Source: a virus
Direction: 5' to 3' (one strand)
IMG/VR virus record: IMGVR_UViG_3300008963_000001
Span: 1 to 64,000 of that record
DNA: 64,000 bases
In this document: positions 10,577 through 55,358 of the stretch, one piece after another
Position numbering within the stretch: position 1 is the first letter of the stretch
Layout: every line of letters begins with the position of its first letter
Program-made: the position numbers and the translations under genes
Notes under the pieces: generated by a model
What the model was told of the DNA's origin: nothing
The model's input: the letters and a program-made list of their open reading frames with translations, nothing else
The model's database searches: none

Positions 10577-10585
10577 CATACTACT

Positions 10586-16652: not shown

Positions 16653-16662
16653 CAATACCTCC

Positions 16663-16670
16663 AATAAATA
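16663..16670 (+). promoter_or_regulatory. T4-late-type promoter octamer for the divergent plus-strand pair
   Basis: AATAAATA, 27 nt before ATG 16697, within the 44-nt divergent gap between the dehydrogenase and the next gene. It overlaps the region upstream of the dehydrogenase ribosome site. It predicts late expression of the two genes to its right. Confidence 0.5.
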
Positions 16671-16696
16671 ATAGTTGTATTTAATTGGAACACGAT

Positions 16697-27649: not shown

Positions 27650-27664
27650 TCTTTAAAACCTTAC

Positions 27665-30345: not shown

Positions 30346-30655
30346 GGGGGTGTCCTTGCTTATTGATATATTTATCGTCTATCATATGGCTGATATAATC
30401 GTAAACATCTGGATTATTTTTTAAAAATTCTATTATTTTATCCACAGCGTCATTATGTTTATCAATTTCTTCTATCGTCCAATTAGAGTTTGTAAATCTT
30501 GCTATTTGTTTGTTACTATCGAAATTAGGAACAGGAATTTCGGTAGTATTTCTAGGAAACAAAAAAGTACCTGGTTCTAATGGCGATTCGTCTGCTTCAG
30601 TTACAAAAAGAAAATATCCATTGTCGTCATATTGATATACAGTTTTAGATCGCAT
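30326..30655 (-). CDS. Tail-fibre-assembly (Tfa)-like protein
   Basis: 109 residues. The N-terminal half follows the Tfa-type pattern: YQYDDNGYFLFVTEADESPLEPGTFLFPRNTTEIPVP, then FDSNKQIARFTNSNWTIEE. The C-terminal half is helical with a basic, His-containing end (DKYINKQGHPHELSSR). Tfa proteins assist folding or trimerisation of phage fibres and can remain bound. It lies among four fibre genes and overlaps the next one by 20 nt. The pattern is recognisable though short. Confidence 0.65.
   Translation of the reverse strand: MRSKTVYQYDDNGYFLFVTEADESPLEPGTFLFPRNTTEIPVPNFDSNKQIARFTNSNWTIEEIDKHNDAVDKIIEFLKNNPDVYDYISHMIDDKYINKQGHPHELSSR
30369..30376 (-). promoter_or_regulatory. T4-late-type promoter octamer
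   Basis: Minus-strand GATAAATA (forward TATTTATC), 24 nt before the start of the fibre gene at 30345 and inside the Tfa-like coding sequence. It predicts a separate late transcript for the distal fibre genes. Confidence 0.5.
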
Positions 30656-30656
30656 A

Positions 30657-32780: not shown

Positions 32781-32794
32781 TTATCGCTCCGTGT

Positions 32795-34669: not shown

Positions 34670-34677
34670 TTAATTTC

Positions 34678-36828: not shown

Positions 36829-37461
36829 TTAAACCTCGTTGAAGCCCGTCAAACTTTGAATACGTATAGTGTAGTCTATTTGGAGCAGTCGATTAAGTGA
36901 CTTCTGAACAGGATGGAAAATAACATGTGTTAAAAGTTTGCCAGAACCGTTTGGATCAAACGATCTAAGACCCAGTTCGTCAAAAACAAATTCGCCATCA
37001 AGGTCAACGGAATTATCAAATGCTTCTTGTTCATCCGGCTCGCCATAATCTAGCAAACAGCTTACAACTATATCACTGTAAGTTGCACCACTAATATGTC
37101 TCACTTCGGTTTTATTTCTAAACGGATCACTATTTTCTATGGAATTTTGATCTATTACTTTAGAATATGTTTGATTATAAAGACTAGAATTTGTTCCAAT
37201 TGTATTTGGAGTAAGATATGTAATTAATCCCGTAGGATCAACTGTTGTTCCTCCAGATCCGAAATCCATTTGAAAAAGCGTTCCAATGCCTTGATTTGAC
37301 AAAGAATTGGCTAGTGCAATACTCATGTTTTCATAATGTATTGCATTTCTTTTGTCTATAAAAACCTCATTAGACGCAGGATCGTATATTTTTATATGGC
37401 CTTCGACATGAAAACCTGTTGTTTCGTCTGGTTTTTTAGATGGTTGCGTGTTATTTTCCAT
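36829..37461 (-). CDS. T4-like marine phage virion structural protein
   Basis: 210 residues from ATG 37461; an ATG two codons earlier has no room for its ribosome site (GAGA ends only at the codon). It starts with a polar tail, then beta-rich segments: GFHVEGHIKIYDPASNEVFIDKRNAIHYENM, FQMDFGSGGTTVDPTGLITYL, EVRHISGATYSDIVVSCLLD and FVFDELGLRSFDPNG, ending KLLTHVIFHPVQKSLNRLLQIDYTIRI. The form recalls a baseplate or fibre-connector protein located between the large baseplate proteins and the fibres. In T4 this position is held by gp8-gp10, but no direct similarity is visible. A late promoter octamer lies upstream. Confidence 0.65.
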   Translation of the reverse strand: MENNTQPSKKPDETTGFHVEGHIKIYDPASNEVFIDKRNAIHYENMSIALANSLSNQGIGTLFQMDFGSGGTTVDPTGLITYLTPNTIGTNSSLYNQTYSKVIDQNSIENSDPFRNKTEVRHISGATYSDIVVSCLLDYGEPDEQEAFDNSVDLDGEFVFDELGLRSFDPNGSGKLLTHVIFHPVQKSLNRLLQIDYTIRIQSLTGFNEV

Positions 37462-37483
37462 TGACATCTCTTAATTTGCTATG

Positions 37484-37491
37484 TATTTATT
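37484..37491 (-). promoter_or_regulatory. T4-late-type promoter octamer for the fibre genes
   Basis: Minus-strand AATAAATA (forward TATTTATT), 23 nt upstream of the 210-residue structural protein start and spanning the stop codon of the giant gene. It would allow fibre genes to be transcribed without passing through the 14-kb giant gene. Confidence 0.55.
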
Positions 37492-40400
37492 CAGGTAATT
37501 CGGTATTCTTTTCCTGTATGAATTTTGCGATAACAGAGTTGTTATCAATCAGCGATTCTCCAGTTGTAGCTGTGCTTTCGCCTCTGTCATACCAAGAAGA
37601 GCCGGTTTTCTTAATCACTGTAATTCTAGTTCCGGCCTCAGGAACAGCAGTAAGTCTGATAAAAGTGTCTTCGCCAGACACACTAAAATCTGCTTCAACT
37701 GTTTCGTCAGATTCTGGGCTGTATGCTCCTAATTCGGCATTAAACATTTGTCTAGGTGTTTTAACCAGTCGGCGACCGCCTACAAAAACTTCAACGTCGT
37801 TGCACTGATAATAGTTGTTTGGAATTGTGTTTCTAAACCAATTTTTTATATCAGTCTTTTGAGGAATAAACGGTAGAGGTCCTATCAAGTTCGAACTGCC
37901 GTCAGATACAAAATCAATTCTTTCTTGCGATTCTGAATATGGAATTATATCACTTATTCCCTGTGATACTATTTTAGAACCTGCTGAATAAGACTCACCA
38001 ATAGGCGATCCTAGTGCTCCTCTTCTAAGTTGGCTTAGTGTATTGCCTGTTTTGTTAAAATATTCAATTTTTTCGCCGTCGATTTCGATCATTCCCGGCC
38101 GATTTTTCTCTGTATCAGGTTCATATAGTAATTCTGCATTTGAGACTACAATTTCTGTGTCATAATAATTCAAATCCTGCTGTAATACAATATCATTTTT
38201 ACTGTATCTAAAGAATCTATCTACATTAAGCATGTCTTTGTGTATCTCATAGGCACTAGGCAGAGAGAATACATCATTGCCGAAGGCAAATATTTTAATG
38301 ATGTCTGATTCCGTTGTTTGACTGTTTAAATAAACACTTCTTTTGTCTGGTGACAAATAATATTCGCTGTCCAATGTTAATCGTTCTCCGTTTAGGTAAA
38401 CGTAAAGGAAACTGGCAGATACTGGTTCAAAATTCAGCTCAAATTTTACTTGGCCTCCTGAATATTCGTCGCTGATAAATTCTTGCGAAGGGTACTGTCT
38501 AAACCATGTAATCTGAATTGTGTCACTGTGCTGTAAGTCTACAGATTCTGATATAATTAAATTGTTTTCGTTAATTCTAAAATCTGTTCTAAAGTCGTTT
38601 TCTATTTTTATAACGTCTCCTTCTACAAGAGCTTCTTCATTTATAATAACAGTTTTAGTTGTTCCATTAAACACGTAATCAGTAATAAATTCTAACTGCT
38701 CATTGTTTTTAAACACAGTTAAATTAGCATTTAATATAGATCCTGCACTTTCTTCAGGATCTGTGCCAATTACAATTTCATTATTGGTCCCGTCATATAT
38801 TTTAACAACTGTGTCAACACCTCGCAGTACACGATTATTGACTTCTACAAGAACACTGCTGTTTTCAGCACCTTCTTGCAGATTAGCATAGTCAGTAATT
38901 TCAAAAGATCTCGTGCTGCCATCGTGCTGGGAAGATTCTTGGTTAATGGTCACTATGTCCGACTCGCTAGAAGTTAAATTAGAATAAGCACCAAGTGCAA
39001 CAATCTTTATTGAGTCATTAAATTCTGGAGCATTACCAAACTGGACTAAAGTTTTATCTGGCTGATCAGTTAGCTCGGTACTATCAATAAATTCAACATC
39101 GGTTTGTATTCCGTTTACTGTAACAAAAATTGAGCTTGTTAGATCAAAATTAGCACTTGTTAAAAACAGCGAAGTTTCTCCGTCGCCTACATATTCTTTA
39201 AAATCAATTATTCTAAGACCGCCTAAACCAATTGAAAATATTTCTATAGTAGATCCTGTTGCGGGCGGGTCAAAGAATTCCAATGTATAACTATTGAGAT
39301 TTAAATCGTAGTCTGTTTCAAAAGTTTTCTGCTGTTTGTCAACGTAAACTATTACAGATTTTGTTTCTAGAATCGTTTGGCCTATGTCGAAAAATCTAGT
39401 GCTTCCGTCTCCAACGATTTTACGAGTAAGTGCTGGTGTTGTACCAGAAATTGAATTCTGATAAACTGTAATTGACAAACTGTCTAAAACCTGTCCTGGA
39501 ACATTTTCTTCGGTTGCAGGAGTATTTTCTGGAGTATTATAGCCATCGCCGTCTATGGATATTTCCTCTGGCGTGCTTCCGTTTGCAGTAATGTAGGCAT
39601 TGTCTATACTGGAAAGAGTGCCTCCCGACAGTCTTGTGTCTAATACATTAATATCATTTATTGTTACAGAACCGTCAGAATCTGCAGGACGGAATATTAA
39701 GGTATCTCCGTCATTTAGACTAACGTATGACCCTATCTCAACAGTTCTACTTGTGCCATCGCCTACAAATGTAGGCATAACTGCATTTTTGTTTGTTACA
39801 AGACTAGAATCTCCGTCGGAAGCAAAATTAGGGTCGTCTATCCGTACTGTAGTAGGCATATTGAATTCCGAAGAATACTGCAAATTATCAATTGTAGGTT
39901 CCGGTATATTTTGTTGCCTTTGCAGATAAACGTTTATTTCTTGCCCTTGTGCAGGAATAAAGGGCAAATCTATGGAGTTAGTCGACCCATCTACAACAAC
40001 ATAAAAATCGGATTCGGACTCAACACTGTCCCAGGAATCCGTAAACCATGGAAGTGCATCCCAACCGCCGGTAACATCAAACGTTGTTCCTTGAATCTTA
40101 ACACCGCCATAATCAACGCCGGTCATTAGCTGATCTAAATCTTTCCCTTTCATTCCTGTTCCAGGACTGTAAAAGGAATCAATACGATCTACTGCATCGA
40201 AAATTTCTTGGTTAATGGTGTATGTAATTTCAATACTATCGCCAACAGCAGGTGGTTCGACAAAAGTAATCTGTCCTTTAAGGGCATTATAACCATTTAC
40301 GTTCTGTTTAAACAGTGTAATCGAATAATCGCTATCTAGTGCAAGTTGGTTGTTAATGCTAACTGAAATATTCTCGTTGGAATTAGACGGCGGATACTTT

Positions 40401-43400
40401 AACGAATAAACCGCAGACGAGCCCGTTCCAACAAATGTTTCAGAGTTGGTAAATTTTTGGTAATTGCCTAGCGCAGAAAGTCTATCAAACTTAATTGTTA
40501 AGTCCATTGATCTCACTTTCGAATCGCCTATTATTGCTACTGCTCTTGCAACGGTATCGCCGGTGCTTGTTCCTCCAACTAGTTTAATTTGAGGTGCTTT
40601 GGTATATCCTTGTCCTTGATTAAGTATTTTTACACCACGCACTCGGCCATTGGCAATATAGGCAATTGCCTCTGCTCCTGTGCCGTCTCCTTCAATAAGC
40701 ACTCTCGGCTGTGCCACATAATTGCTACCTGGATCGGTAACTTCAATATTGACAACCCCAAATCCGTTGTTGTCTAACCACCATCTCCACGGATATTCCT
40801 GAACAATAGGATCCGTAGATTGAGTTGGAACAACCCGGCCTTGTGTAGAATTATAATAGGCAGGCAAGTCGAAATCGGTTGTAGAAGTTCTCGACTCGTC
40901 TGTGTTTTTATATTTGCTTACAAATTCTCTAATAGAAGATCGATAGGGTTTTACTTCATTGACATAATCTTCGTAACTTTCGAGGCTGTCATTTTCATAG
41001 TTTATTTTCTGTTTTAGATTACCTACACGATGAGTTGCTTTGAGAAAACTTGTTTTAAACAACCAATCTACATATGCCTGCTCTACTAACACATATCGCA
41101 TGGTTGCAAAGAACAGTTTATTGTATTCCTGTGCGTAAGTTCCTATAAAAATGTCATTTTTAACAGCTTTTAAAATATTCCTTATTTCTTGCGAATTATT
41201 ATTGTCATAAAAGCCGCCATCATAGGCACTTGCAGAGTCATAACCTATTCCAGCTAGTGAAGTATCAAAAATAGATCTGTCAAATTGAATAGTGCCACGT
41301 TCACGACCTACTAGTGTGTATTTGTTTAAGAAATCACTTTCACTGTCGGATACTTTTTCAAAAACAGCCCAGCCGCCTGAACCGTATTCTTGTATTCTTA
41401 ACAGATCTCCTATTTCAACTTCTACAGTCGGTTCTTGTGCAACACTTTGTATTTCTTTAACGATGCTGCGTTCGGCGCTATAACCTTCCTTCCAAAAATC
41501 TGCAAACGACCAATATCTTGCGGTGTCGAACGCCTGAGATAAGCTTCGGAAAAATACTTGTCTCTGGTCGTCCCAACTGTAAATCCCCCAAAATCCATTT
41601 GCGTTAGAATCTGATTTTACTAGAACTGCAAATCTTCTTGCTTTTAAGGTAATTTCTGTGTAATTTCGACCTCTCCTAGTGACAGTCACGCCGTTTACTC
41701 TGCCCTGATTATCTATTGTAACTTCAACTTCAGCATTTTCCCCGTTACCTTCTATTTCTACAATAGGAGCAATTTTATATCCAAACCCAGGATCTAAAAT
41801 TTCTACTGTTTCCAGTTCTCCGTCGGCTAGATTGGGTTTTAAAACTGCCTGTTTTAATCTAGATGTTCCGATAGACTGTAAATCTTCAAACACATCCACT
41901 TCAGTATCATACAGATTTAGCAAAGGACTAGGTGTAGTATCTACTAAATTCAAATTCTCAAAACTGATAGTGTCTGCAAACGGTTCTTGCCTTAGCACAG
42001 TATTAACTCGATCAGTTACGATTTCTAAAGCTTTAAACCTGTCAACAAACATACTTTGTCTTGGCCTATACAGTATACCATACTTTTGTTTTGTTGGAAG
42101 ATTTTCAGCAGGGACCTTTAACCCTGCAGAGTTGTACCCTACAAGACTGTCTATCCATTTGTTTTCTAATTTTTTATTAGGAACGCTTGTTGCTACGCCT
42201 TCTGACAACAACTGCCACTCGCTGTGAACAGGATTTTGTTTTTGTAGTGATGTATAAAATTCAAAGTTTACTAACGATGTTGACTCATTAACAACATTAT
42301 CAAAATTATATAGAATAAAACTGTTGGGTCCGCTTAGGCCTATAAATGCAGATCCGACGCTTTGTGGGTTTTCAATTAAATCTCTAATGCTAGCTGCGCT
42401 AAGATTCTTGGTTAACTCGTCGCCGACAATTGTTTTATTTCTTACCCAGTAGTAGTATAAGGTTTGTGTTGGCTGTTGAGTATCGGGGTCGAACAAGGTT
42501 TTAACCGAATACACGTTGTCTTCAGGATACAACGGTTGTCCTGAAACTCCAAGGTTTAACCCTTCTGTTGTGTCGGCTAAAAGACTCCATTGGCTAGGTA
42601 GCAGGCGCGACTCGACCCATTCGTAGATGTCGATCCTCGATCCTGTCACTTGTCGATTCCAATTTCCTAATCTATAAGATAGTTCTCCTTGTTCGTAATC
42701 TAGCCACTTCGCTGTAGAGACATCCCACCAAATTTTTCCTACGTTTCGATCAGCCCACGCGGTTTGAGGATCAACCACCGCATCGAGCTCTAAGCTAAAG
42801 CTATATACTGCCGGATCGTAGCTGGTTTTAAAATCTATCTGTGATTCTGCAATGTTTAAAATTTTTCCTTTGGCAGAATCTACAACATCTAGGTCTTGTA
42901 TCTTAACACTGTTTATGTTATCGTATAATTCAGTAGATTTTACTAGATCAATATTAGTTTTAGCTTGTTGTTGCGCAATGGTCCTCAATGATTCTGCGTT
43001 TACAAGTTTATTGAAGGTTCTAAATTTCCCTCTGCCGCCATCTTCTAATCTATAGTGCGGAGATCCCACAACAATATTATTACCTTCTGCATCTACGCTA
43101 GAACCAAAACCTTCGTTTGCTTGTAAATCTTCTTGTATTTTTTCGGCTAAGAAATATTTGCTTCCTTTTAGTTCAAACAGGTAGACCGAGCCTGCATATC
43201 CCGGCTCTTCAAAAAACTCTGTAGTACGTTCGTCAAACACTGTTGAGTTGTTGTCGAATCTCACAGGTGGTGCGTAAGGAGAGTTTTTAGCTCCTACTGC
43301 AATTTTACTAGTATCCGAGCTGATAGAAATGCTGCTTCCAAAAAATTCATTAGGATATCTTTCAAAGCTGCTGATGTCCTGTGCTAGACTGAATGTGTTT

Positions 43401-46400
43401 CCAGTATTTCGAAATATGTATACAGAACCTTGATTTTGTAAGTTTATATCGGCCTTGGGGCTAGATACTACCAGCAATGATCCGGCAGCGTCAACATCTA
43501 AATCAAAACCAAACTCGTCGCCCGAGCTTATTTCTATAAACTGGCTGTCGTCGGCTAAAATCGTGCTGGTTGATATTGTCTGGTCTAAGACATATTTTCC
43601 TAGATCATTTTTCTTAAATACAAAAACTTTACCGGTCGGAGTTGCGGTGCTGTCTCCAATATTTTTCCACGGCAGGCCGACTGGTTCTTGTCCGTAACTG
43701 AATATTGAGGAATCAGATGTTTCTAGATCATTTACCAATTGATGATACGATCCTTGATATTTTACAACATCATTTTCTTTGTATTCGTAATCACTTCTCC
43801 AGACGCCTTTGTAGTTTTCAAAATATTGATCGTCGGCAAACGGTGCGCTGACAGCAAGAACAGAACCATCTGTGTTTGATTTTATTCTATGGCCAAACTG
43901 CTCGCCTTCAGAAATAAGTGGTAATACTTCTGTGTCTGTTGCGCCGAAGTTCAGTGTAGAATCAAAAAATGTTTGTGTTGTGTCTAACTGCAACATCGGT
44001 CCTAAATGACCAGCGGAAGCAATTGTCCATGCGTTGCTTTCGACCGGGTATTTGATATTTGCCTCGCTAGCAGGGAAAACATTTTGCTGAGCTTGATAAA
44101 GATTTCCATCAAACCATACAATACTGCCCACCGGATAGAAAGGATTAGTTCTTACAGTTCCGTTGCTGATAAAACCAGCCTGGTCACCGTCAATCTTTGC
44201 TATGATTCTATCACCCACAGAATAGAATATTCCAGTAGAGCCGTTAATTTCATTCCAATCTGTATCACCTAGTGTTTCTATGAGTAGATCTTGGCCTGTT
44301 TTAATTTGATTAATAGGCAAGACTGTGCCAGGATCATAAGCACCTGCAAAACTATAATCTGTAGCATGTATCCAATCATTGCCTACGTATTTGTACACAT
44401 AGACGGCACCGGTGCTGTTGTTTGCTCCGGGAGCAGAAACAAACATTGTATATTCGTCGTTGTTTTTGCTGATTGAAATTTGTGATCCGAACAGCTCTAG
44501 GTCTGTCGGTCTAGGACTTACAAAGCTAAACTCATGCTCCCATTGATCATTCTTATATTCATATATGTCTATCATCCCTTGAGATGCAAGCGAGCTTCTT
44601 CGACCGGTGAATGTTGCTGGAATGTTTTTAGCAAATTGCCATCTATCATTATATACATCAATTGTGCTGCCGTCGCCTTCGATTTCTTCTTTGGGTGTCC
44701 ATAATAGTCCATCGTGCAACACAATATCTCGACTAGAATAATTGCCTCTTGGGTCAAAAGCACCTTTATAGTTGCTTGGAACATCGCCGGCCTTAGGAGA
44801 GCCTACAGCAAGCCATTTTTCGTCAGGGCTTACAGCTATTGATTCTCCGAACGACCTTTCTACGAAGCTGGATAGGCCAGGAACAGGTTGGACAATTTGT
44901 TTTAAATCCAACGATTTTCTATTATCTAGGTAAACAGGAATACTAGCTGTAGCTGGATCTGACGCTAATATTTGCTTTTTATTTGCAATGTACTTTACAA
45001 CAGAGCCTAATCTACCCGGTTGACTGATAGCATCTTCGCTAACGTTTTTTGATTGATATAATTTTTGTTTTTCTAAGACTGACCATTTATTATTTTGATC
45101 GCTATCAACAAACAATTTAGAGCCTTCGCGAAGATGTGCAACAGCATCTTCTGGCATGCTTTCGTAATCAACAAATCTTGCTTCTTCGAGTCTATAAACT
45201 GATGCCTGGGTGCTATCGTCTGGCTCGGGATCGTCTGCATCGGGCGCCTTTAGTATGGTTACGGTTTTAGGTCCAATGCTTTGGATCTGATAGATACCAT
45301 TAAAATTTGTAATATTTTTAAAACCAACATATTCATCTGGTTGAAAATTGTGATAACGATTAAACTCAACTGTTATCGTATTGGTATCAGCAACGATTCC
45401 TGTTACACTTAGTTCAGGAGTAAGTAAAAATCTTAAAACAGTCCAATCTCTTCCGTCGAACGTAATCCAAATATGATCTCCATCGACTATATCTTCGATG
45501 TTAAGTGCCGGCAAGTCTTGTCTAGTACGAACTACAAATTCAGTTTGATCTGTTCTTACGTACCCTGCTGTTCGAGATGCATGTGTCGCGGCCGTTACAG
45601 GTATTACATCAGTAACAAACTTATCGTTGCCGATAGTAAAGTTGTCTGCATTAATTCTATAATAAAAATCGGCTGCGTTGTCTGTGTTTCCGTCAATTAA
45701 AACCAGTTGCGGGTCTGATTCGAATTTATCCTTTCTTAGTTCAATTTCATATTCTTGAGTCTGATCTATACCTCCCAAGAAGCCCGAACGAATTGCCCAT
45801 TCCTCATTTAATTCTAGACTGTCTTCGTCTGCGTTGTCACTTAATTTATCGAAAACCTTGTCTAGTGCATTTCTTGTGCCTTTTTCCTGTATAAATCCTT
45901 GATATAATCTAAATTGTGTTACAGGATCTTCCGCAATATTCTGCAGATATTGTCTAGGTTGATATCCAATATTGTGTCGTGCAAGCAGTTTTTGATTTTC
46001 GCTGATTCCGCTGCTTGTTACTTCAAAATAGTCTTCAAAGCTGTTAATTCTATAATCAAAGTTAGGAACAAGTTGTTTTTCTGGCTGAGAATCTAGTTTA
46101 GACCAATTGCTGTCATCAAAAAACTCTTTACCAGTTTGATTTCTAAGGCTTACCCAATTATAACTTTTATATCTAACAATGTCGCCTAAGTTATAGTCTA
46201 CAAACGGCTGCCAGTCTCTAATGTTTACGTTATCGAACAAGAAACCAGGAGAAGTATAATCGCCGTCCCAATCTACAGTTCTAAAACCTTGTGATTTAAT
46301 TCTACCTTGCCTATAACCTGTGGATTTGTCATATATTACATCATTAAACACTGTTCTATCAGTAAACACTGTGACGTGTTCTTTGAGCACATAATTCAAT

Positions 46401-49400
46401 TGTAGGAAGAATATGCCGTCGTTTATGTTTTCTACGCCGATTTCGAAAGATTGAAAGGATCTTTCTACGTTGATAAATTTTGGGTCAATAGTTCGTCCGT
46501 CACTCTTTAATAGATTATAAGGATAAAATCCATCCAGTAGGTTTTCCGCTACACCTACGGGCTTTCTTACTTTGAGTTTTTGCGCTCCTGGCGACACAGT
46601 AAGCAAACTTCCTATTTCCCAATTGTTTTTTGTCCAGAATAAAAATTCTTTTGCTGACGTTGTCCAGTCTTGCGGAGTTTGATTTTCAAAGTCATATTCA
46701 TCAAAAACAAAACCTTGATCGGAGAGATATTCTCCGTACCCCAGTAAGAAATCTACCACGTCCTGTATTGTAGTAAGAGTTGTTCCGTAGGTGAGTCGAG
46801 ATACAGATCTCTTGTTAAACCTTCTGCGTTTAAATGCCTGTGTGCCACCTGTTACAGGAAGTTTAGGCAACTGCGCATACAAGGATGAATCAAATGTCTC
46901 TCCAGATGTGTGTGTTTGGGTAGCACGGTAATAAGTTCCGTTTCTTTCTACGATCGTACCATTGTTATATCTTTGATTTGCAGCCCACGTTACGAACTCT
47001 TCGGATATTCCGCCAACTGTTATGACAGGATCTTGTTGGTTTGACAGAGCATCGTAGTATTCGAAAAATGGATTTATATTGTTATAACCTCTAACACTCC
47101 AACCGTTGTCCTGTTTCTCAAAAATCACACCACTATAAATCAGTGTTTCTACAGGACTGCTCACATTGAAAATGATATCGTAGTTTTCTGGCGGAATAAA
47201 AATACTTTCGTTGGTTGACGAAGGTGACTTCGAGTCTAGCAAAAATTTCTGCTGAGCCTTGTCTACAAACCCGCTCATTCTTACACTGAGATTGGTGTCA
47301 ATATTTTGTATTTTATTTTCTAGAGATTCTCTACCTACACCTAAATCACTTAGATAGTCTTTGACATAATTGATAAGTCCAGCAGTTTGAATTCCGTCGA
47401 TGCTGGGAATTTCAATGTCACTGGGTTTAAAAAATGTTTTGGTATTTGTGTCAACCAATTGTCCTAAGAGATTGCGCTCTGTGGTTTGGCGATCTAAATT
47501 AGTGGTAATAAATTTGAATGGCTTTAACAGGCACATTGCAATCACATAGGCAAATGGCAATTCGGAACTTCTTCTCCAAGCGGCTTCTGCCGGTGCAACA
47601 TCGCCTACCAAGAATGATCCTCGATTGTTGACCAATGCAAAGTTTTTAGCAAACCCGCTGTCTAACGGACTTAATAAATTGCCAGCATCGTCTACGGGTA
47701 TGTGTCCTAGTATTGTCGAACGAGCATATCTAGAATCGAAACCTTGCCTTTCACCTTGTCTGATGTACCCGCGACTGATGTCTTCCCATAAGATGAGGTT
47801 GCCACTAGTGTAAGGTGCAGGGCCGTATTCTTCTTCCCACCACTCAGGCATTTCGGAAAAGCCTAGCATTTCCCAAGGATGCACGTGCGGCTCGTCTGTG
47901 TCATAGATGTATAGATACACACCTCTCCACCAGCCTGGAAGATTTTCAGTGTTAGTATAATCTGTTAGGTTAGAATAGGTGTAGGTAAAACTGTTTTCCG
48001 AATCCAAATAGACGTTGTTAGAGTAATCTATGTTAGAATCAGTTACCCATCTTAGAAATTCTGCAGCAAGTATGCTGTCTAGGTCTTCTTTAGAAAAGTC
48101 TCCCTTGTAATAATAACCGCCAACTACTTGATCTATATCAAAGAAATCTTTATCATAATTTACTTTGATGTTATTGTAAATTCTTTTTTCAAGTTCTAAT
48201 ATTAAATCGTCTCGAAAGTCTCCATAAGTAGTAGTTAGGCTTCCGTCGTGTCCTTGAATGACTTCTCTAGGTTGTGTGAAAGTTGTATCAACATATTTTT
48301 TTGGTTTGAATCGTTTATACGAGCCTAGAGCAGTTGGCGTTGGCGGAATATAATTAGCAGAAGTATTAACATATTCTCTTATCTGTATTCTGTCGCCTTC
48401 GCTTAGGGGTGTAAGAATTGTAATAAAACCAAAATCTGTGTCAAACACATAATCTTGCCCGTGCAACAACTGTTGATCGTTTATGTAGGCATATACTGCA
48501 CGCCTTGATAGAGAATCTAAATCAAAATTTTCGTCTAATGTAAAAGTGGTTATACCCGGATCGTCCACTGTTATGTCTATTGTTGTGTACGCCCCGCTTC
48601 CTATCATGTCGCTGTCAGAGAACGGAGACGCCGGGCTCATTGTTTTTCCAAGATCAGTAATAATTTCGTCTAAGAAGTCTGGAATACTATCATTAAAATC
48701 TATTTCGACGGCCTTTTTAACAAATCTATTTTTAAAATTTGTATAGGATCTTTCAGCAAATTGTATAGCCCGTACTAAATTAGATTGTTTATCACACAGC
48801 ATCAATACACTCAAAGGAGCAATACCGCTGTGCTTTACAAAACGTGTTGCATTTTGTATGTAATTGTTTAGATCACGAACATTGGTGTTACCAGGCAACT
48901 GTCCTGTTAGGCGCGCATCAAATTCAAAAGCGGATTTTAGATGATCTGTTGCTTGTCCTAGTGTAAGGGTTGTAAGAGCCGCATTAAACGGGTTATTTTG
49001 AAGTCCAATGGGTAATTCATAATAGCCTAAGTCAGGGTCTACGTCTCCTATGACCTTAACTGTTACAATGTCATCAGAGTCAAATTGTCTTTCAAATATG
49101 AACGAGTTCTGCTGTCGTTCGTAATTGCTTGATATTTGTTTTCCGTTAACATAAAATCTTATTTCGTGGTCGGGATCGTTTGACAAATTGTCCCAATCAA
49201 CAGTTTGGAAAGTAACTGTGTTTGTCTGTTGTTCTATGTTTGCAAAGTCTACGATTGGTTGTAGATATTTTGAATCTGTTTGGCGCCAGCCGTTGCCTAA
49301 ATTGCCGTCCAAAAGATAGAATGTGGTGTTTATTGGAATTTCAAATGTTTCTATGTTTTCGCCGTATGTAACTGTGCCTCTATCTAAATGCCATTCGAAC

Positions 49401-51367
49401 TGTATATCACCTACATTGTCAATGTTTAGATAGCTGATTGAAAATCCTAACTCACTATCCACAGGCCCGTTTCCTTGAGCATAAGAAAAGATCGAGTTTC
49501 CTCTAAACGTAGACACAGGATAGACATTTGTGTTGCCCAGAATGTTACCTGCGTCATCGAAAAGATCAAACAGGGGTGCTTGGTTTACAGAATCTTTGCG
49601 TTGCGCACGCTGCCAATTCGCTCCATCAAAAAAGAACATAGAGTTACTGTATTGATCGCCTCGTCTAACAAGAACACAGTCGTCCTGTTGAGAGGTTGCG
49701 TCGACGTCTTCGGCCAAATGAATCTGCCTATTGCCATTAAAAGTAATAAACTCTACTCGATAAATTTTGTTGTTGGTTAGCGGATCGGTATCATTTACAA
49801 CAAGAAGTCTTGCTCCGTTAAACAATCTTTCACCGTCTACGCTGTACCCTGCGGATCCTTCTATGGTAGAAAGCACATCTGTTGTAAAGTCGTCAACAAA
49901 GTCCACCGTTTGTTTAGCGGTTATGCCGTGCTGGAAAAGTTTAAGGTTTGGTTTAAATTCAATAATTGGACGTTTTGCACGCAGTTCTTCCGGTGCGGCA
50001 AAATCTTGACCTCGTGTTCTATATGCTTGCTCCAGCACAGATCTATGGAACCATCTGTTGTAGCGGCTCCAGGGGTTTCGATCTCTACTGTCTCTGCGAA
50101 TTAAAACATAATCTTTTTGGCCAGGGAAATTATTGGCGTCGTCAAAAGGCTGTGTGTCGAATCCTGCATTATCAAAAAATACTTCTGGGCTTGTGCCTGA
50201 AATTTCGGGCGGAATCAAATCTTCAAAGTTAGTAAGCGTGATTCCATCGCCTACGCCCTCAATTAACCACGACCCTTTGCTGTATTTTTCTGGAACTGTT
50301 TGGCCAGTGAATTCAATTACAAGGCCGTTTGTAAACTCTATACCGTTAGAGCTGGTATAATTTACTTTTCCGATTATGTCCTTTTCAACATCTAAGAAAG
50401 TATTAGTGTCAGCATCGGCTATAATAAACTGTCCAAGTCTGTTTGGATCGTTAGCACTTTGATAATACAGCAGGTCTGGGGCGTCTAGCGGTACCTCGAA
50501 CGTTATTGTTCCTTGTTCTGCTCCGTTATTTTCAATGCCTTCATTGTACTCAAAACTGTTTCCTGTTGCATTGCTGTCAATCAACTCCCAATCCTGCGAG
50601 TCTACATCTATTGTGCTGTTGTCACTAGGAGTGTTTTCTGCTAGAGATTTAAACAATTGTCCATTTACTACAGCTAAATCGCCAGGAAAATAAGTTTTTG
50701 TGGGATCAAATTGTAGCGACCCCACATCATAATTGGTCTTTATTACAAAACCCTCGTTGGGAGAATTAACTTGGAATTTATAAGTTTGTCCACGATACAG
50801 TGTAATTGTAGGATTATTTGTAAGACCATCTGGTGTAAAGATCCAAGAAGATCCCACACCCTGAATTACTCTATATGTGCTTTGTATAGATTGTGTTTGG
50901 CCCGCAACGTCGAGCGACGGTGGCCCTAGAGGAGCCCAAAAATATTCTCTATAGTTTGTAAATTTGTCCCAATCTATAGGAGGATTCCAAGAATAATGAT
51001 CCTGATCCGAAATTAGGTCATCACGTTCGTTGTTGTTGTTAAAAAATTTAAGCTGGTTTTTTAAATCTAGATAATCATAAAAATCAGTGATTTCGTTTTT
51101 ATCGTTTTTTACATTTACACCGGGTTCAAGCTGGTATCTACTGCGTAGAGTCTCATCAGAATCTAAATAGACACTGTCCCCTCTAAATGTTTTTCCGTAG
51201 CGTTGGCCAAAATACCCTACAATACGTTCTAAACTGCCTGGTTGCGTAATAGGATCTACGACACCAGAAAAGAATTTGTTGTTACTGGCTGTTTGAAAAA
51301 CTTGTGGTAACAGCTCTTGTGTCTTTCTAATAGGGATTCCGCTGTTTGGGTACTTTTTACCAGCCAT
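37487..51367 (-). CDS. Giant multidomain virion structural protein (4626 residues), probable baseplate/fibre component
   Basis: One uninterrupted frame of 13.9 kb. The N-terminus (LLPQVFQTASNNKFFSG, LERIVGYFGQRYGKTF, NPPIDWDKFTNYREYFWAPLGPP) is a form I associate with very large structural proteins of T4-like marine phages. Recognisable modules: W/Y-rich carbohydrate-binding (CBM5/12)-like units near residues 220, 1465, 1720, 2205, 2410 and 2525; six FG-GAP-like propeller blades between about 2165 and 2780 (SFGESIAVSPD, LFGSQISIS, QFGHRIKS, EFGFDLDVD, FFGSSISIS, GFGSSVDAE, each followed by VVGSP- or VSAP-type turns); two GYxxAPxVxIxG units near 3200 and 3560; and seven or more beta repeats starting (V)GDGST near 3640-4360. 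An IDGEKIEYFNKTG motif lies near 4420. It follows gp6, the place of gp7/gp8 in T4. No membrane segments, and no protease or enzyme motif seen. Confidence 0.85.
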   Translation of the reverse strand: MAGKKYPNSGIPIRKTQELLPQVFQTASNNKFFSGVVDPITQPGSLERIVGYFGQRYGKTFRGDSVYLDSDETLRSRYQLEPGVNVKNDKNEITDFYDYLDLKNQLKFFNNNNERDDLISDQDHYSWNPPIDWDKFTNYREYFWAPLGPPSLDVAGQTQSIQSTYRVIQGVGSSWIFTPDGLTNNPTITLYRGQTYKFQVNSPNEGFVIKTNYDVGSLQFDPTKTYFPGDLAVVNGQLFKSLAENTPSDNSTIDVDSQDWELIDSNATGNSFEYNEGIENNGAEQGTITFEVPLDAPDLLYYQSANDPNRLGQFIIADADTNTFLDVEKDIIGKVNYTSSNGIEFTNGLVIEFTGQTVPEKYSKGSWLIEGVGDGITLTNFEDLIPPEISGTSPEVFFDNAGFDTQPFDDANNFPGQKDYVLIRRDSRDRNPWSRYNRWFHRSVLEQAYRTRGQDFAAPEELRAKRPIIEFKPNLKLFQHGITAKQTVDFVDDFTTDVLSTIEGSAGYSVDGERLFNGARLLVVNDTDPLTNNKIYRVEFITFNGNRQIHLAEDVDATSQQDDCVLVRRGDQYSNSMFFFDGANWQRAQRKDSVNQAPLFDLFDDAGNILGNTNVYPVSTFRGNSIFSYAQGNGPVDSELGFSISYLNIDNVGDIQFEWHLDRGTVTYGENIETFEIPINTTFYLLDGNLGNGWRQTDSKYLQPIVDFANIEQQTNTVTFQTVDWDNLSNDPDHEIRFYVNGKQISSNYERQQNSFIFERQFDSDDIVTVKVIGDVDPDLGYYELPIGLQNNPFNAALTTLTLGQATDHLKSAFEFDARLTGQLPGNTNVRDLNNYIQNATRFVKHSGIAPLSVLMLCDKQSNLVRAIQFAERSYTNFKNRFVKKAVEIDFNDSIPDFLDEIITDLGKTMSPASPFSDSDMIGSGAYTTIDITVDDPGITTFTLDENFDLDSLSRRAVYAYINDQQLLHGQDYVFDTDFGFITILTPLSEGDRIQIREYVNTSANYIPPTPTALGSYKRFKPKKYVDTTFTQPREVIQGHDGSLTTTYGDFRDDLILELEKRIYNNIKVNYDKDFFDIDQVVGGYYYKGDFSKEDLDSILAAEFLRWVTDSNIDYSNNVYLDSENSFTYTYSNLTDYTNTENLPGWWRGVYLYIYDTDEPHVHPWEMLGFSEMPEWWEEEYGPAPYTSGNLILWEDISRGYIRQGERQGFDSRYARSTILGHIPVDDAGNLLSPLDSGFAKNFALVNNRGSFLVGDVAPAEAAWRRSSELPFAYVIAMCLLKPFKFITTNLDRQTTERNLLGQLVDTNTKTFFKPSDIEIPSIDGIQTAGLINYVKDYLSDLGVGRESLENKIQNIDTNLSVRMSGFVDKAQQKFLLDSKSPSSTNESIFIPPENYDIIFNVSSPVETLIYSGVIFEKQDNGWSVRGYNNINPFFEYYDALSNQQDPVITVGGISEEFVTWAANQRYNNGTIVERNGTYYRATQTHTSGETFDSSLYAQLPKLPVTGGTQAFKRRRFNKRSVSRLTYGTTLTTIQDVVDFLLGYGEYLSDQGFVFDEYDFENQTPQDWTTSAKEFLFWTKNNWEIGSLLTVSPGAQKLKVRKPVGVAENLLDGFYPYNLLKSDGRTIDPKFINVERSFQSFEIGVENINDGIFFLQLNYVLKEHVTVFTDRTVFNDVIYDKSTGYRQGRIKSQGFRTVDWDGDYTSPGFLFDNVNIRDWQPFVDYNLGDIVRYKSYNWVSLRNQTGKEFFDDSNWSKLDSQPEKQLVPNFDYRINSFEDYFEVTSSGISENQKLLARHNIGYQPRQYLQNIAEDPVTQFRLYQGFIQEKGTRNALDKVFDKLSDNADEDSLELNEEWAIRSGFLGGIDQTQEYEIELRKDKFESDPQLVLIDGNTDNAADFYYRINADNFTIGNDKFVTDVIPVTAATHASRTAGYVRTDQTEFVVRTRQDLPALNIEDIVDGDHIWITFDGRDWTVLRFLLTPELSVTGIVADTNTITVEFNRYHNFQPDEYVGFKNITNFNGIYQIQSIGPKTVTILKAPDADDPEPDDSTQASVYRLEEARFVDYESMPEDAVAHLREGSKLFVDSDQNNKWSVLEKQKLYQSKNVSEDAISQPGRLGSVVKYIANKKQILASDPATASIPVYLDNRKSLDLKQIVQPVPGLSSFVERSFGESIAVSPDEKWLAVGSPKAGDVPSNYKGAFDPRGNYSSRDIVLHDGLLWTPKEEIEGDGSTIDVYNDRWQFAKNIPATFTGRRSSLASQGMIDIYEYKNDQWEHEFSFVSPRPTDLELFGSQISISKNNDEYTMFVSAPGANNSTGAVYVYKYVGNDWIHATDYSFAGAYDPGTVLPINQIKTGQDLLIETLGDTDWNEINGSTGIFYSVGDRIIAKIDGDQAGFISNGTVRTNPFYPVGSIVWFDGNLYQAQQNVFPASEANIKYPVESNAWTIASAGHLGPMLQLDTTQTFFDSTLNFGATDTEVLPLISEGEQFGHRIKSNTDGSVLAVSAPFADDQYFENYKGVWRSDYEYKENDVVKYQGSYHQLVNDLETSDSSIFSYGQEPVGLPWKNIGDSTATPTGKVFVFKKNDLGKYVLDQTISTSTILADDSQFIEISSGDEFGFDLDVDAAGSLLVVSSPKADINLQNQGSVYIFRNTGNTFSLAQDISSFERYPNEFFGSSISISSDTSKIAVGAKNSPYAPPVRFDNNSTVFDERTTEFFEEPGYAGSVYLFELKGSKYFLAEKIQEDLQANEGFGSSVDAEGNNIVVGSPHYRLEDGGRGKFRTFNKLVNAESLRTIAQQQAKTNIDLVKSTELYDNINSVKIQDLDVVDSAKGKILNIAESQIDFKTSYDPAVYSFSLELDAVVDPQTAWADRNVGKIWWDVSTAKWLDYEQGELSYRLGNWNRQVTGSRIDIYEWVESRLLPSQWSLLADTTEGLNLGVSGQPLYPEDNVYSVKTLFDPDTQQPTQTLYYYWVRNKTIVGDELTKNLSAASIRDLIENPQSVGSAFIGLSGPNSFILYNFDNVVNESTSLVNFEFYTSLQKQNPVHSEWQLLSEGVATSVPNKKLENKWIDSLVGYNSAGLKVPAENLPTKQKYGILYRPRQSMFVDRFKALEIVTDRVNTVLRQEPFADTISFENLNLVDTTPSPLLNLYDTEVDVFEDLQSIGTSRLKQAVLKPNLADGELETVEILDPGFGYKIAPIVEIEGNGENAEVEVTIDNQGRVNGVTVTRRGRNYTEITLKARRFAVLVKSDSNANGFWGIYSWDDQRQVFFRSLSQAFDTARYWSFADFWKEGYSAERSIVKEIQSVAQEPTVEVEIGDLLRIQEYGSGGWAVFEKVSDSESDFLNKYTLVGRERGTIQFDRSIFDTSLAGIGYDSASAYDGGFYDNNNSQEIRNILKAVKNDIFIGTYAQEYNKLFFATMRYVLVEQAYVDWLFKTSFLKATHRVGNLKQKINYENDSLESYEDYVNEVKPYRSSIREFVSKYKNTDESRTSTTDFDLPAYYNSTQGRVVPTQSTDPIVQEYPWRWWLDNNGFGVVNIEVTDPGSNYVAQPRVLIEGDGTGAEAIAYIANGRVRGVKILNQGQGYTKAPQIKLVGGTSTGDTVARAVAIIGDSKVRSMDLTIKFDRLSALGNYQKFTNSETFVGTGSSAVYSLKYPPSNSNENISVSINNQLALDSDYSITLFKQNVNGYNALKGQITFVEPPAVGDSIEITYTINQEIFDAVDRIDSFYSPGTGMKGKDLDQLMTGVDYGGVKIQGTTFDVTGGWDALPWFTDSWDSVESESDFYVVVDGSTNSIDLPFIPAQGQEINVYLQRQQNIPEPTIDNLQYSSEFNMPTTVRIDDPNFASDGDSSLVTNKNAVMPTFVGDGTSRTVEIGSYVSLNDGDTLIFRPADSDGSVTINDINVLDTRLSGGTLSSIDNAYITANGSTPEEISIDGDGYNTPENTPATEENVPGQVLDSLSITVYQNSISGTTPALTRKIVGDGSTRFFDIGQTILETKSVIVYVDKQQKTFETDYDLNLNSYTLEFFDPPATGSTIEIFSIGLGGLRIIDFKEYVGDGETSLFLTSANFDLTSSIFVTVNGIQTDVEFIDSTELTDQPDKTLVQFGNAPEFNDSIKIVALGAYSNLTSSESDIVTINQESSQHDGSTRSFEITDYANLQEGAENSSVLVEVNNRVLRGVDTVVKIYDGTNNEIVIGTDPEESAGSILNANLTVFKNNEQLEFITDYVFNGTTKTVIINEEALVEGDVIKIENDFRTDFRINENNLIISESVDLQHSDTIQITWFRQYPSQEFISDEYSGGQVKFELNFEPVSASFLYVYLNGERLTLDSEYYLSPDKRSVYLNSQTTESDIIKIFAFGNDVFSLPSAYEIHKDMLNVDRFFRYSKNDIVLQQDLNYYDTEIVVSNAELLYEPDTEKNRPGMIEIDGEKIEYFNKTGNTLSQLRRGALGSPIGESYSAGSKIVSQGISDIIPYSESQERIDFVSDGSSNLIGPLPFIPQKTDIKNWFRNTIPNNYYQCNDVEVFVGGRRLVKTPRQMFNAELGAYSPESDETVEADFSVSGEDTFIRLTAVPEAGTRITVIKKTGSSWYDRGESTATTGESLIDNNSVIAKFIQEKNTELPE

Positions 51368-54300
51368 TAGTAAGTGCTTCCTCCGGTAGTGCTAGATCCA
51401 GTCATTGTACTATTCAAATCAGTAATAGAAGAAGTTACAGTAGTTGATATTTGACTAGAACTCTGTGCTGTTGTATCGCCTTCGTTGCCCAGCACAGTGT
51501 TGTTAATGCTGGTAACTATTTCTACTGTGTCGACTGTTGCGCCACTTATAAAGATTTCGTTTGGTGCGCTTTGTATTTCAAACAAGCTTCCAAATGCTTC
51601 ACCTGCTTGCTTGCTTACAATTGTAAAGTTACTTATAAAAGGCGCTAGCTGATTAAAAATATATGTATTCATTTCACTTACATAAAATCTATCGCCAAAG
51701 TCCCAATTGTTAATATCAAAAAACGCGTTTACAGCATTAATAATTCTAACTTTTAGATCATTGTCGCTTATTCTCTGCTCTGGATTCTTTACAACAAGGA
51801 ATCGAGCTTGAAGTTCTGGCTCAGCGTCTTTGCCAAAAAGCACTTTATATGCAACAGGATGATAAACAATTTCGTCAGAAATGCTCTTGATATTGTTAAG
51901 CTGTTGTCCAAACTGTATTCTTAATTCGTCTGTGGTAGGCAATTCGGGCTTTGTTGCAGTACCGTTGATATAGTTTCTAAATTGAGTGTCGTAAGAACGT
52001 GTTAAAATAAACAGGTCTATGATATTGCTGACGCTGGGGTCAATTCTTCTTTCTTCGCTTGCATTGTGAATGTATTCAAATCTTATGCCATCTCGGCCGT
52101 AGACTGCTTTAAATTCAGGCCTAAGAATCAGCGTGTTTGTATTTCTATCAACCTGTTTGACTCTATTTTGATTTACGTCATAAAAATAAATCAGCTGTCC
52201 GTTTTCTTCAGAGTTGATATCGACATCCTCTTCTGACTCTAAAATTTTAAATAGTGTAGGATCTTGATATTCAAAGCTAGTAGATCCGTACTCGTCAATT
52301 TCTCTTTTAAATATTAAGAAATTCAATTCCGAGTCTGCGCCTGCAATTTGCTCAAACGAATCTGGGTTGTCGATAACACCGTCTTGATCTTTGTCGCTAA
52401 ATGCAAGCTTGATTTCTTTGGTGCTTTCGTAACCGTCTGCAAATTTAATTGTGTCGCTTATTTCAAAATCTATATCGTTCACAAGCGGGGTTGTAAAATC
52501 ACTACCGGTATTAATACCTAGAACACTAACGGTATCTTTAACAACTTCGCCGGTGCGTGAATTATAGGATCTATCTGTGCTGTCAAAATAGAATCGATTT
52601 TGATTTAAGCTTCCGAATACATAGTCTAATTTTCTAATTCTTACTTCATACCTGTCAGCTTTCTGTACAAATGCTACAAACCAGCTAGAGTCTAAAGAAT
52701 TGTTACTTGTGTCTCCGGCAGACCCCAAATTAAAATCATCTATCAAATTTAAATTTGATTCCTCTACGAGATTCCAAGTGGCCGTGTTGTTGTCGTACCG
52801 AATACCAAAATCAAAACCCTGTAGTATTTGATTTATCATTTCATTTTCAAAACCTAATGGAAGGTTCTGAACAAATTTTGGTATAATTCGCTCCGCAATT
52901 GCGCCTGTAGGGATGCTGTCGCTGAACCTAATCGGTCCTAACCCACTTTCAAGTGTTCCGCGGCCAGCTACGGTACCGTCTCCAGATACACTTACTACCT
53001 TGGTCCATAGAGAATCACTAGACCCTTCGTGATCCGCTGGTCCGGGCATTAGTGTTCCTGCAGGATAGTCTAAATGATCCGCAACTGTTTTTGTCATAAA
53101 ATGAAAACCTGCAGGCGCTTTAAACTTGATCAAAGCATTCGGAGTTACGTATTTTAAAGCACTTGTAGAAAAAGTTCCTACTTGTAATAGCCTAGAATCT
53201 ATCCCGCTTTCAAAATACCCAGTGCTAGACCCGTCATCGTTTGTAATCTGTTGCCAGAGCGAATTGTCGTCTGCAAATAGTATTTTTGGATAATTTGTAA
53301 AATAAAAATTATAAGTGCCGACGTCTTCGAGCTCTGGTTCGATTTCTTGTCTGATAAAATTGATAACTTCATTTCGATTTGTAAAAGTAAGTGTTTTGCT
53401 TATTTCTTTGTTTTCTTTATAGATATATCCGTCAGAAGCAAACAATCTTACATCGCTGTATTTGCCTGTTGCATCTACAATATCAAAGTTTCTGCTGATG
53501 CCGCTCGAAGTTCTATTAACACTTCTTACTTTTAATATATTTTGGCTCGATGTTAAGGGAGCAAGGTTATAATCTTCTCCAGTAATCATTCTGTTTTGAG
53601 TATAATAACTCGCCGGAGCTCGGGTTCGAATACTGTCAATACTTTCAGATGCAGAAGCATTGTTGATACTAGATTGCAAGGCAAGACCTACTGTAAGTGT
53701 GTGCCTTACTCCGTTAGAATTAAAATAATCAAAAGAAATATTAATTCCTTTCATTTCATTAGGAGCAATTGTATATTCTATACCGTTGCTCACTCTATAA
53801 AAGATTCTAAACGGACCTCTTGGGAGATTTCCATACACGCCATCTGCAAACTGTAGTCTTATTCTGTCGTTTTCTCTAGTTTCGACCGCGTAAATATTTC
53901 TAACGTTGTTTTCGATACTGTTAAATGCAATATTATTCCCGCTGAGATTATTAACCTGCGTCCATTCTTGCGTTTGCACAGCGTTGGCATCTAAGGAATA
54001 TAACCAAACGTCGTTGTCGTTGATATTTTGAGCATCTACATCAACAGTTTCGTTAGTTGTGGGCGTGTCGATAGTAAAATCCGCTGTTTCTAAACTTCCT
54101 TGTTTAAAAAGAAGATAAAAACCAGTATTAGCACTGCCAGGACCTCTGCCGTCTTGTCTGTATACAAAGCCCAATTGATTGCCGGGCACAGGCGCTTCTT
54201 CATATAAAAATTCTCTGTTTTGAAAGCTAGTGCTTAAGATTTCAAAACTCATGTTCCTGCCGGCTACTGTCTTGTCAAAGCTGAATACAGGCACATCAGT

Positions 54301-54879
54301 TGATGCTGATCTAAATCTATACTGTTCTGTAGGTATTCCTTGTATAGTTGCATTCCCTTGACTTCGACCAAACTGAGTGTTGTCTGCCATTGCAGAATTT
54401 AGGATAGTTAAAAACTGTTCTGACCAGTTTTCGTTGGTGGGGTCGTTCCAAGATATAACCTGTTGTGCTAGGTTTCTGCCGTTGCTGTCGAACACTGCTT
54501 CTGTTGTGCTCACAGTAGTAAATTTAAGCAGTCCTTCCGACGGTGTGTTGCGAGATGCTTTGTAACTAAGCATTTTGGCAATGCGTAGCACACTCTCTTT
54601 GCGTTCTGCCAGTTCGATAAAATTTTCTCGGCTGGCTAGATCTATTCTAAAAGACAGGCTTTGGCCTAGAAACGCAATTGCATCGATCAGTGCAAGATAT
54701 TCTGAGCTCTCTATATAATCGTTAAAATCTTCGGGATAATTTTCTCTGAGATAGGTTATAATAACTCGACGTAGATTTTCAAAATCATAGGATTTGAAAT
54801 CTGCATTTTTAAAAGTTTGATAGATTCTAGTCCAATCTTCATTGAGAATAAGATTGTTTTGTCTTTCAGTAGTGCTCAT
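51367..54879 (-). CDS. 6: Baseplate wedge protein gp6-like
   Basis: 1170 residues, much longer than T4 gp6 (660). The N-terminus fits the gp6 type of T4-like marine phages: NEDWTRIYQTFKNADF, YDFENLRRVIITYLRENYPEDFNDYI, SSEYLALIDAIAFLGQSLSFRIDL, RENFIELAERKESVLRIAKML. A Baseplate_J-like middle has ITGEDYNLAPLTSSQNILKVRSVNRTSSG. The C-terminal part has the usual domain with ADEPELQARF-type segment, INAVNAFFDINNWDFGDRFYVSEM and a low-complexity Ser/Thr end. gp6 forms the ring of wedges that holds the baseplate together. It shares one base with the giant gene start. Confidence 0.9.
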   Translation of the reverse strand: MSTTERQNNLILNEDWTRIYQTFKNADFKSYDFENLRRVIITYLRENYPEDFNDYIESSEYLALIDAIAFLGQSLSFRIDLASRENFIELAERKESVLRIAKMLSYKASRNTPSEGLLKFTTVSTTEAVFDSNGRNLAQQVISWNDPTNENWSEQFLTILNSAMADNTQFGRSQGNATIQGIPTEQYRFRSASTDVPVFSFDKTVAGRNMSFEILSTSFQNREFLYEEAPVPGNQLGFVYRQDGRGPGSANTGFYLLFKQGSLETADFTIDTPTTNETVDVDAQNINDNDVWLYSLDANAVQTQEWTQVNNLSGNNIAFNSIENNVRNIYAVETRENDRIRLQFADGVYGNLPRGPFRIFYRVSNGIEYTIAPNEMKGINISFDYFNSNGVRHTLTVGLALQSSINNASASESIDSIRTRAPASYYTQNRMITGEDYNLAPLTSSQNILKVRSVNRTSSGISRNFDIVDATGKYSDVRLFASDGYIYKENKEISKTLTFTNRNEVINFIRQEIEPELEDVGTYNFYFTNYPKILFADDNSLWQQITNDDGSSTGYFESGIDSRLLQVGTFSTSALKYVTPNALIKFKAPAGFHFMTKTVADHLDYPAGTLMPGPADHEGSSDSLWTKVVSVSGDGTVAGRGTLESGLGPIRFSDSIPTGAIAERIIPKFVQNLPLGFENEMINQILQGFDFGIRYDNNTATWNLVEESNLNLIDDFNLGSAGDTSNNSLDSSWFVAFVQKADRYEVRIRKLDYVFGSLNQNRFYFDSTDRSYNSRTGEVVKDTVSVLGINTGSDFTTPLVNDIDFEISDTIKFADGYESTKEIKLAFSDKDQDGVIDNPDSFEQIAGADSELNFLIFKREIDEYGSTSFEYQDPTLFKILESEEDVDINSEENGQLIYFYDVNQNRVKQVDRNTNTLILRPEFKAVYGRDGIRFEYIHNASEERRIDPSVSNIIDLFILTRSYDTQFRNYINGTATKPELPTTDELRIQFGQQLNNIKSISDEIVYHPVAYKVLFGKDAEPELQARFLVVKNPEQRISDNDLKVRIINAVNAFFDINNWDFGDRFYVSEMNTYIFNQLAPFISNFTIVSKQAGEAFGSLFEIQSAPNEIFISGATVDTVEIVTSINNTVLGNEGDTTAQSSSQISTTVTSSITDLNSTMTGSSTTGGSTY

Positions 54880-54920: not shown

Positions 54921-55358
54921 TTAGTTTATGATAGAGTTATTTCTATCAAAGTTAAAGGTCATGCGCTCGTTTACATTAAAGGGTATGTAAAGTAATTCCG
55001 CTTCTATTCTAATGCCCTGCTGAGTGCTGTCGATCGTCAATTGTCGCACTGACACTCTTGGATCATAATTGATTATAGCTTCGACATCTTTTGAGATAGC
55101 TTCTTTGGTTTCTTCGGTAAATTGATCGAATAACAAGTCCCAAATAATTGTTCCGAACTCTGGATTTTCTAATTTTTCGCCTTTGCGAATATAAAAATGA
55201 TTGATTATGTCCTGCTTAACTAGATCTATATCGTAGAGTTTAAAACCGCGGTCTTTGCTCTTGCTGCTAAATCCTTTGTAGGTCTGAGTAAAGGGACTCT
55301 CGTCGCCTACACTTACTGAATTTTGTCCTACTTTTTTGGTATTAAAAAGTGTTGCCAT
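54921..55358 (-). CDS. 25: Baseplate wedge protein gp25 (lysozyme-like fold)
   Basis: 145 residues, close to T4 gp25 (132). Gp25 motifs are clear: DIINHFYIRKGEKLENPEFG and TIIWDLLFDQFTEETKEAI, then NYDPRVSVRQL and the closing strand LLYIPFNVNERMTFNF. The conserved EKxxNPxFG and DPRV elements mark the GPW/gp25 family, shared with phage P2 gpW and T6SS TssE; it has no lytic activity in T4. It links wedge proteins and the tail sheath. It shares one base with the gp5 stop and lies next to gp6 as in T4. Confidence 0.92.
   Translation of the reverse strand: MATLFNTKKVGQNSVSVGDESPFTQTYKGFSSKSKDRGFKLYDIDLVKQDIINHFYIRKGEKLENPEFGTIIWDLLFDQFTEETKEAISKDVEAIINYDPRVSVRQLTIDSTQQGIRIEAELLYIPFNVNERMTFNFDRNNSIIN

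Follow-up and report, generated by a model that had tools for sequence, protein, structure and literature searches.

The window, a stretch of 64,000 nucleotides belonging to a 128,677-base IMG/VR virus record, contains on its minus strand a single reading frame of 4626 codons, and the question raised by this locus is which role such a giant protein plays directly downstream of a baseplate wedge gene. An intact frame over 13.9 kb had been described in a first-pass annotation that did not give the strand, and this is confirmed, as the gene starts with ATG and has no internal stop. An assembly chimera could be ruled out, since residues 1-3590 are 100% identical on an independent contig (L011) and several further contigs encode full-length relatives of 4.9 kaa that span residues 1-4626 at ~44% identity; the frame is therefore no assembly accident. 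A nucleotide search among phage records found no near relative.

At the protein level, the product belongs to the family phrog_10938, which it matches over its core in four stretches, and many columns of a 13-way alignment of the family are invariant. In T4-related jumbo phages the orthologues range from 3,313 to 4,555 aa (Atu_ph07, 4449; Phosso, 4555; PA5oct, 3857; SCTP-2, 3807; Vibrio 2.275.O, 3771; CBB, 3340; Kaldavass, 3339; XaC1, 3332; RaK2, 3326; 121Q, 3323; XacN1, 3313), and in the annotated relatives the orthologue lies immediately downstream of a gp6-like gene, with the exception of Salicola phage SCTP-2. There, a second giant frame of ~3,096 aa (L004:8624-17914) directly precedes the orthologue in the place held by gp6 elsewhere, and the gp6-like gene is found at a different place in the genome. 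Two scans of IMG/VR returned at least 558 and at least 578 relatives. The 96 complete frames among the matches listed, a sample biased towards the relatives of the window, measure 2,193 to 6,307 aa with a median of 4,575, and 34 of them exceed 4,626 aa, the longest (L178, L150 and L170) reaching 6,190-6,307 aa. A record or unique size can thus be ruled out; given orthologues of 3,313-4,555 aa after gp6 and environmental members of up to 6,307 aa, both the size of the protein and its position after gp6 are ordinary for the family. Some members (L194-L199) come from contigs assigned to MAGs of bacteria (Neomarinimicrobiota, Endomicrobia, Puniceicoccaceae, Gammaproteobacteria); these are most likely mis-binned phage contigs, and as hints at a host they are weak at best.

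The structural role proposed earlier, which absence from virions would have contradicted, is supported through the orthologues: in CBB, the orthologue CBB_236 is reported among the virion proteins detected by mass spectrometry with 21 unique peptides (PMC5259590), and the record of the PA5oct orthologue carries the note 'ESI-MS/MS'. The same evidence bears on whether the giant protein might be a polyprotein whose processing yields a set of separate baseplate proteins, such as gp7-like, gp8-like and fibre-connector-like ones. Its great length would suit such a processing, as would the finding that no clear gp8 was found in the genomes searched. Against this, neither a cleavage site nor a neighbouring baseplate-specific protease was found, and what the CBB proteomics report gives (PMC5259590), peptide positions not included, shows no sign of fragments, so that we regard a polyprotein as highly improbable.

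The placement directly after gp6 is borne out by the PHROG matches of the upstream gene (Table 1) and by a start codon that overlaps the gp6-like stop codon by one base (ACTTACTAATGGCTGG; TAATG, with GGAGG upstream). Genes for gp25-like and gp5-like proteins lie upstream of the gp6-like gene, and the T4 order 25/6/7 as well as the overlap with gene 6 are found in the window. On the other side, a gene similar in size to the one that follows the giant gene also comes next in several relatives. Five fibre-, collar- or adhesin-like genes come after the giant gene on the minus strand (25919-36825). Four of their products have an N-terminal PHROG match in common (phrog_15511 and 14394), and therefore probably an attachment domain as well, and the protein encoded at 25919-27649 (minus strand) ends in a Gp38-like adhesin (PF05268). 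Elsewhere in the window, genes for GTP cyclohydrolase I, a phosphoribosyltransferase, a HIT-domain protein and a QueE-like radical SAM protein stand close together on the plus strand (8331-11437), a group that suggests a 7-deazaguanine pathway (queuosine/preQ0-type), possibly serving DNA modification. The region 15417-25857 encodes a UDP-glucose dehydrogenase and a pair of radical-SAM proteins, of which one has a SPASM domain, together with five consecutive frames of 208-350 aa that have no Pfam or PHROG match.

Table 1. Features of the giant gene, its product and the adjoining genes (positions in the window; residues of the giant protein)
Feature	Residues	Position	Strand	Evidence or remark
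Giant gene, 4626 aa, phrog_10938 'virion structural protein'	1-4626	37487..51367	-	1039 bits
Core block 1	1-150	50918..51367	-	occupied in 92-98% of distant homologues
CBM5/12-like module 1	219-264	50576..50713	-	iterated HMM, E 1e-13
Core block 2	401-900	48668..50167	-	occupancy in distant homologues
Core block 3, most conserved, HPWEMLGF motif	1001-1950	45518..48367	-	occupancy and alignment
CBM5/12-like module 2	1461-1500	46868..46987	-	Pfam CBM_5_12 and iterated HMM
CBM5/12-like module 3	1718-1759	46091..46216	-	iterated HMM
KGT motif, YQGFIQEKGTRNALDKVFDKLS region	1818-1842	45842..45916	-	reminiscent of gp7 KG(T/I) motif; best E 0.0016-0.012, decoy range
Inserted seven-bladed FG-GAP beta-propeller, integrin-alpha-like	~2102-2796	42980..45064	-	Pfam, HMM, AlphaFold, fold search
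CBM5/12-like module 4, nested in propeller	2204-2246	44630..44758	-	iterated HMM and model
CBM5/12-like module 5, nested in propeller	2406-2449	44021..44152	-	iterated HMM and model
CBM5/12-like module 6, nested in propeller	2522-2570	43658..43804	-	iterated HMM and model
Core block 4, W-FKTS and EVKPYRxxIR motifs at end	2801-3500	40868..42967	-	occupancy and alignment
GSGYT-type beta module	3183-3240	41648..41821	-	module scan
GSGYT-type beta module, accounts for phrog_438 match	3536-3594	40586..40762	-	PHROG and module scan
C-terminal array of T7-tail-fibre-N-like beta domains, eight matches	3645-4584	37616..40435	-	PF03906
Small domain in common with N-terminus of cyanophage giant gp7	~4391-4470	37958..38197	-	E 4e-6, probability 87%
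gp6-like baseplate wedge subunit, 1170 aa, one-base overlap with giant start		51367..54879	-	phrog_10646 and phrog_219 matches
gp25-like baseplate wedge subunit		54921..55358	-	PF04965
gp5-like hub subunit/tail lysozyme family protein		55358..57043	-	PHROG and Pfam matches
212-aa protein, next gene downstream of giant		36829..37467	-	phrog_11259

In the first-pass annotation the gene had been assigned to the site of gp7/gp8 in T4, which holds for gene order (gp25-gp6-giant) but not for sequence, as homology to T4 gp7 or gp8 was not detected. For gp7, the family was negative by HMM, by profile-profile slices (hhalign) and with the Pfam gp7 domains, the last of which also miss the annotated gp7 of Synechococcus phage Bellamy. 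A gp6 model matches the genomes of all six complete relatives; the hits of a gp7 model are confined to T4 and Vibrio phage F86, with nothing in these six jumbo genomes, and a gp8 model matches T4 and F86 and otherwise only a marginal fragment in Atu_ph07 (E 0.008). Likewise, the T4 gp7, gp7 N-terminal and Tail_P2_I models reveal no alternative gp7 in the six genomes, the latter two models also missing the gp7 of Bellamy. The match to phrog_438 had to be discarded as a sign of gp8 homology, since it is limited to a GSGYT module (3539-3623). T4 and cyanophage gp7 have a KG(T/I) motif in common. The KGT motif of the family aligns with that of cyanophage gp7 by hhalign at E 0.0016-0.012, and because shuffled decoys reach 0.0014 this alignment is a lead only; a second motif, the KPYRT region, gave no significant match to the C-terminal regions of T4 and cyanophage gp7. 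Compared with the giant protein, T4 gp7 shares the gene order and the overlap with gene 6, but it is 4.5 times shorter and has no detectable sequence homology to it, and the Pfam gp7 domains are missing from the giant protein. Gene order and elimination are therefore the grounds for calling the giant protein a gp7-position wedge protein, which is not a demonstrated homologue of gp7.

The earlier statement that T4 has nothing of comparable size at this site is correct for T4 itself (gene 7, 1032 aa) but does not extend to its relatives, which include the jumbo orthologues of 3.3-4.6 kaa and a cyanophage wedge protein of 4,067 aa. The latter, gp111 of Bellamy (L202:28571-40774; phrog_2885), is annotated as 'baseplate wedge initiator' and follows directly after gp25-gp6; the gp7 HMM recognises its KGT motif at 7e-7, and a Bellamy-type profile matches T4 gp7 at E 7.5e-11. 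Very large proteins in the gp7 position thus already exist among T4 relatives. Bellamy gp111 resembles the giant protein in size, in its place after gp25-gp6, in its GSGYT modules and in one small domain (E 4e-6), which may be a mobile module. In contrast, its core has no overall homology, it carries neither a propeller nor a clear CBM-like module, and its KGT motif is near the N-terminus and not near residue 1829. Two other PHROGs of giant proteins, phrog_701 (6,136 positions) and phrog_4406 (3,231 positions), have modules in common with Bellamy gp111, a hint that giants in the gp7 position are general among the aquatic relatives of T4. In a search of BFVD, the strong matches were, where named, either uncharacterised proteins of phages or the Atu_ph07 member of the family, the Bellamy wedge initiator appearing only at E 0.14.

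The architecture of the protein follows from its occupancy in distant homologues, which is high for residues 1-150, 401-900, 1001-1950 and 2801-3500 and low for 151-400, 1951-2800 and much of 3500-4626, a block pattern that reveals a conserved core with inserts. This core of ~2,300 residues is common to all relatives, whereas the adhesive modules are not. An AlphaFold model of a core segment (CBB 1293-2469) is mediocre (pLDDT 65, pTM 0.46), and a PDB fold search with it found no significant match; below significance, leads include an AlgoCIS chain (7aeb_G, rank 3, E 0.049), and there is a weak fold match to a chain of the phiKZ baseplate peripheral region (9xqs_U, Z 5.5 over 85 residues). This last match, although weak the best one for the core, agrees with a reading in which the giant protein is a peripheral component of the baseplate, part of an outer ring or fibre network that merely follows gp6, while a small undetected protein serves as gp7. 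The missing gp7 homology and the adhesive type of the modules point the same way. However, the gene order agrees with T4, none of the models applied to the six genomes yields another gp7 (with the reservation made above for two of them), and it is the core and not the adhesive modules that all relatives share; taken as a whole, we consider a peripheral protein rather unlikely.

Among the inserts, residues ~2100-2800 form a seven-bladed, integrin-alpha-like propeller. Pfam detects FG-GAP_2 (9.5e-17) and CBM_5_12 (9.8e-15; residues 1460-1488) in the giant protein, and the propeller region (residues 2102-2796) shows six FG motifs, with a further repeat that is degenerate. The assignment rests on an AlphaFold model built with 25 sequences of the window's clade (pLDDT 75.7, pTM 0.76), on its VIA-align match to the headpiece of integrin alpha-L (5e6u_A; Z 27.0, rmsd 2.8 over 360 residues), which is far above what the tool calls 'middling', and on a Foldseek search in which an integrin alpha chain ranks first (E 7e-11). 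The seven FG-GAP-type repeats and the fold are held in common with the beta-propeller of integrin alpha subunits. Integrin alpha-I domains sit as inserts in the integrin propeller, and the domains inserted into the phage propeller parallel them, but these are CBM5/12-like and not alpha-I. The blades further differ from those of integrin in that calcium-type DxDxD motifs are almost absent, and identity is below 20%, so that a common fold is claimed and integrin function is not.

An iterated HMM seeded from the giant protein locates CBM5/12-like modules in six places, half of them inside the propeller. Together, the propeller and CBM-like region would have a putative role in polysaccharide binding and host contact, as suggested by the type of the modules. 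In the first environmental scan, each of the 48 complete frames among the matches listed contains at least one FG-GAP match and 42 of them contain at least three; such matches also occur in many members listed from the second scan, and in the environmental members listed they nearly always lie between the KGT motif, which precedes them, and the KPYRT motif, which follows. None of the 11 cultured orthologues scanned contains the propeller, which is thus general in the window's environmental clade and absent from the cultured relatives examined. The named members of the family (the RaK2 ORF070w product, CBB_236, 121Q gp582, PA5oct gp355 and Atu_ph07 gp180) share the core and the place after gp6 with the giant protein, identity being 22-26% over 2.9-3.4 kaa where measured, but the FG-GAP propeller is missing from them, as is a long C-terminal array of T7-tail-fibre-N-like domains, and their CBM-like modules number zero to two. 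A literature search did not find a description of an FG-GAP or integrin-like domain in a tail protein of a jumbo phage. The new element is an integrin-alpha-like propeller with nested modules of carbohydrate-binding type in an environmental clade.

The earlier view of the protein as a sequential chain of modules fits the C-terminal ~1,000 residues, which look like a serial array of beta domains and contain eight of the nine T7-tail-fibre-N-like domains; it does not fit the core, which is interrupted by nested modules. The same array is the evidence for a fused baseplate-fibre polypeptide, as the first-pass annotation had suggested, in which an N-terminal scaffold and a C-terminal fibre would share one chain. 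This appears quite improbable, as the domain that the repeats resemble is, in T7, the attachment domain and neither fibre shaft nor tip, as separate collar, fibre and adhesin genes follow downstream, and as the cultured relatives lack the array. In place of the propeller and the array, the orthologues of Atu_ph07 and Phosso have ten GSGYT modules, and those of the RaK2 type are almost without extra modules. Within the family, the core is therefore constant and the decoration is exchanged.

Taken together, the giant protein is probably a baseplate wedge protein that occupies the place of gp7 in a jumbo-type myophage related to T4 and has been enlarged by surface-recognition modules. The gp7-position reading draws on the family and gene order, on the one-base overlap with gp6 as in T4 genes 6 and 7, on the orthologues found in virions and on the precedent of Bellamy. 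The broad claim of the earlier annotation, a structural protein at the gp7/gp8 site that combines recognition with scaffolding, is thereby partly right: structure and, by gene order, site are upheld, and recognition is suggested by the kind of modules present. In the proposed wedge protein, the core, made next to gp6, would join the gp6-like product in the six wedges, presumably in six copies, while the propeller, the CBM-like modules and the C-terminal domains would project outward. These outward modules could make contact with polysaccharide, either on the cell surface or extracellular, and hold the fibres that are encoded separately by the downstream genes, and the polysaccharide contact may help to set off the rearrangement of the wedges with which sheath contraction begins. 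A stronger version, in which the wedge protein is itself the host sensor and a glycan contact made by the propeller with its sugar-binding modules is relayed within one polypeptide to trigger contraction apart from the fibres, seems unlikely to us.

The family phrog_10938 includes some of the largest structural proteins of phages and is abundant in environmental viruses, and its members are currently annotated as 'virion structural protein' or 'hypothetical'. A wedge scaffold in the gp7 position with swappable modules offers a testable model for how the baseplates of large myophages grow, namely by adding lineage-specific inserts, be they a propeller with CBM-like modules, GSGYT arrays or almost none, to a fixed core. 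If the propeller and CBM-like region does bind glycans, host recognition would be partly built into the wedge itself.
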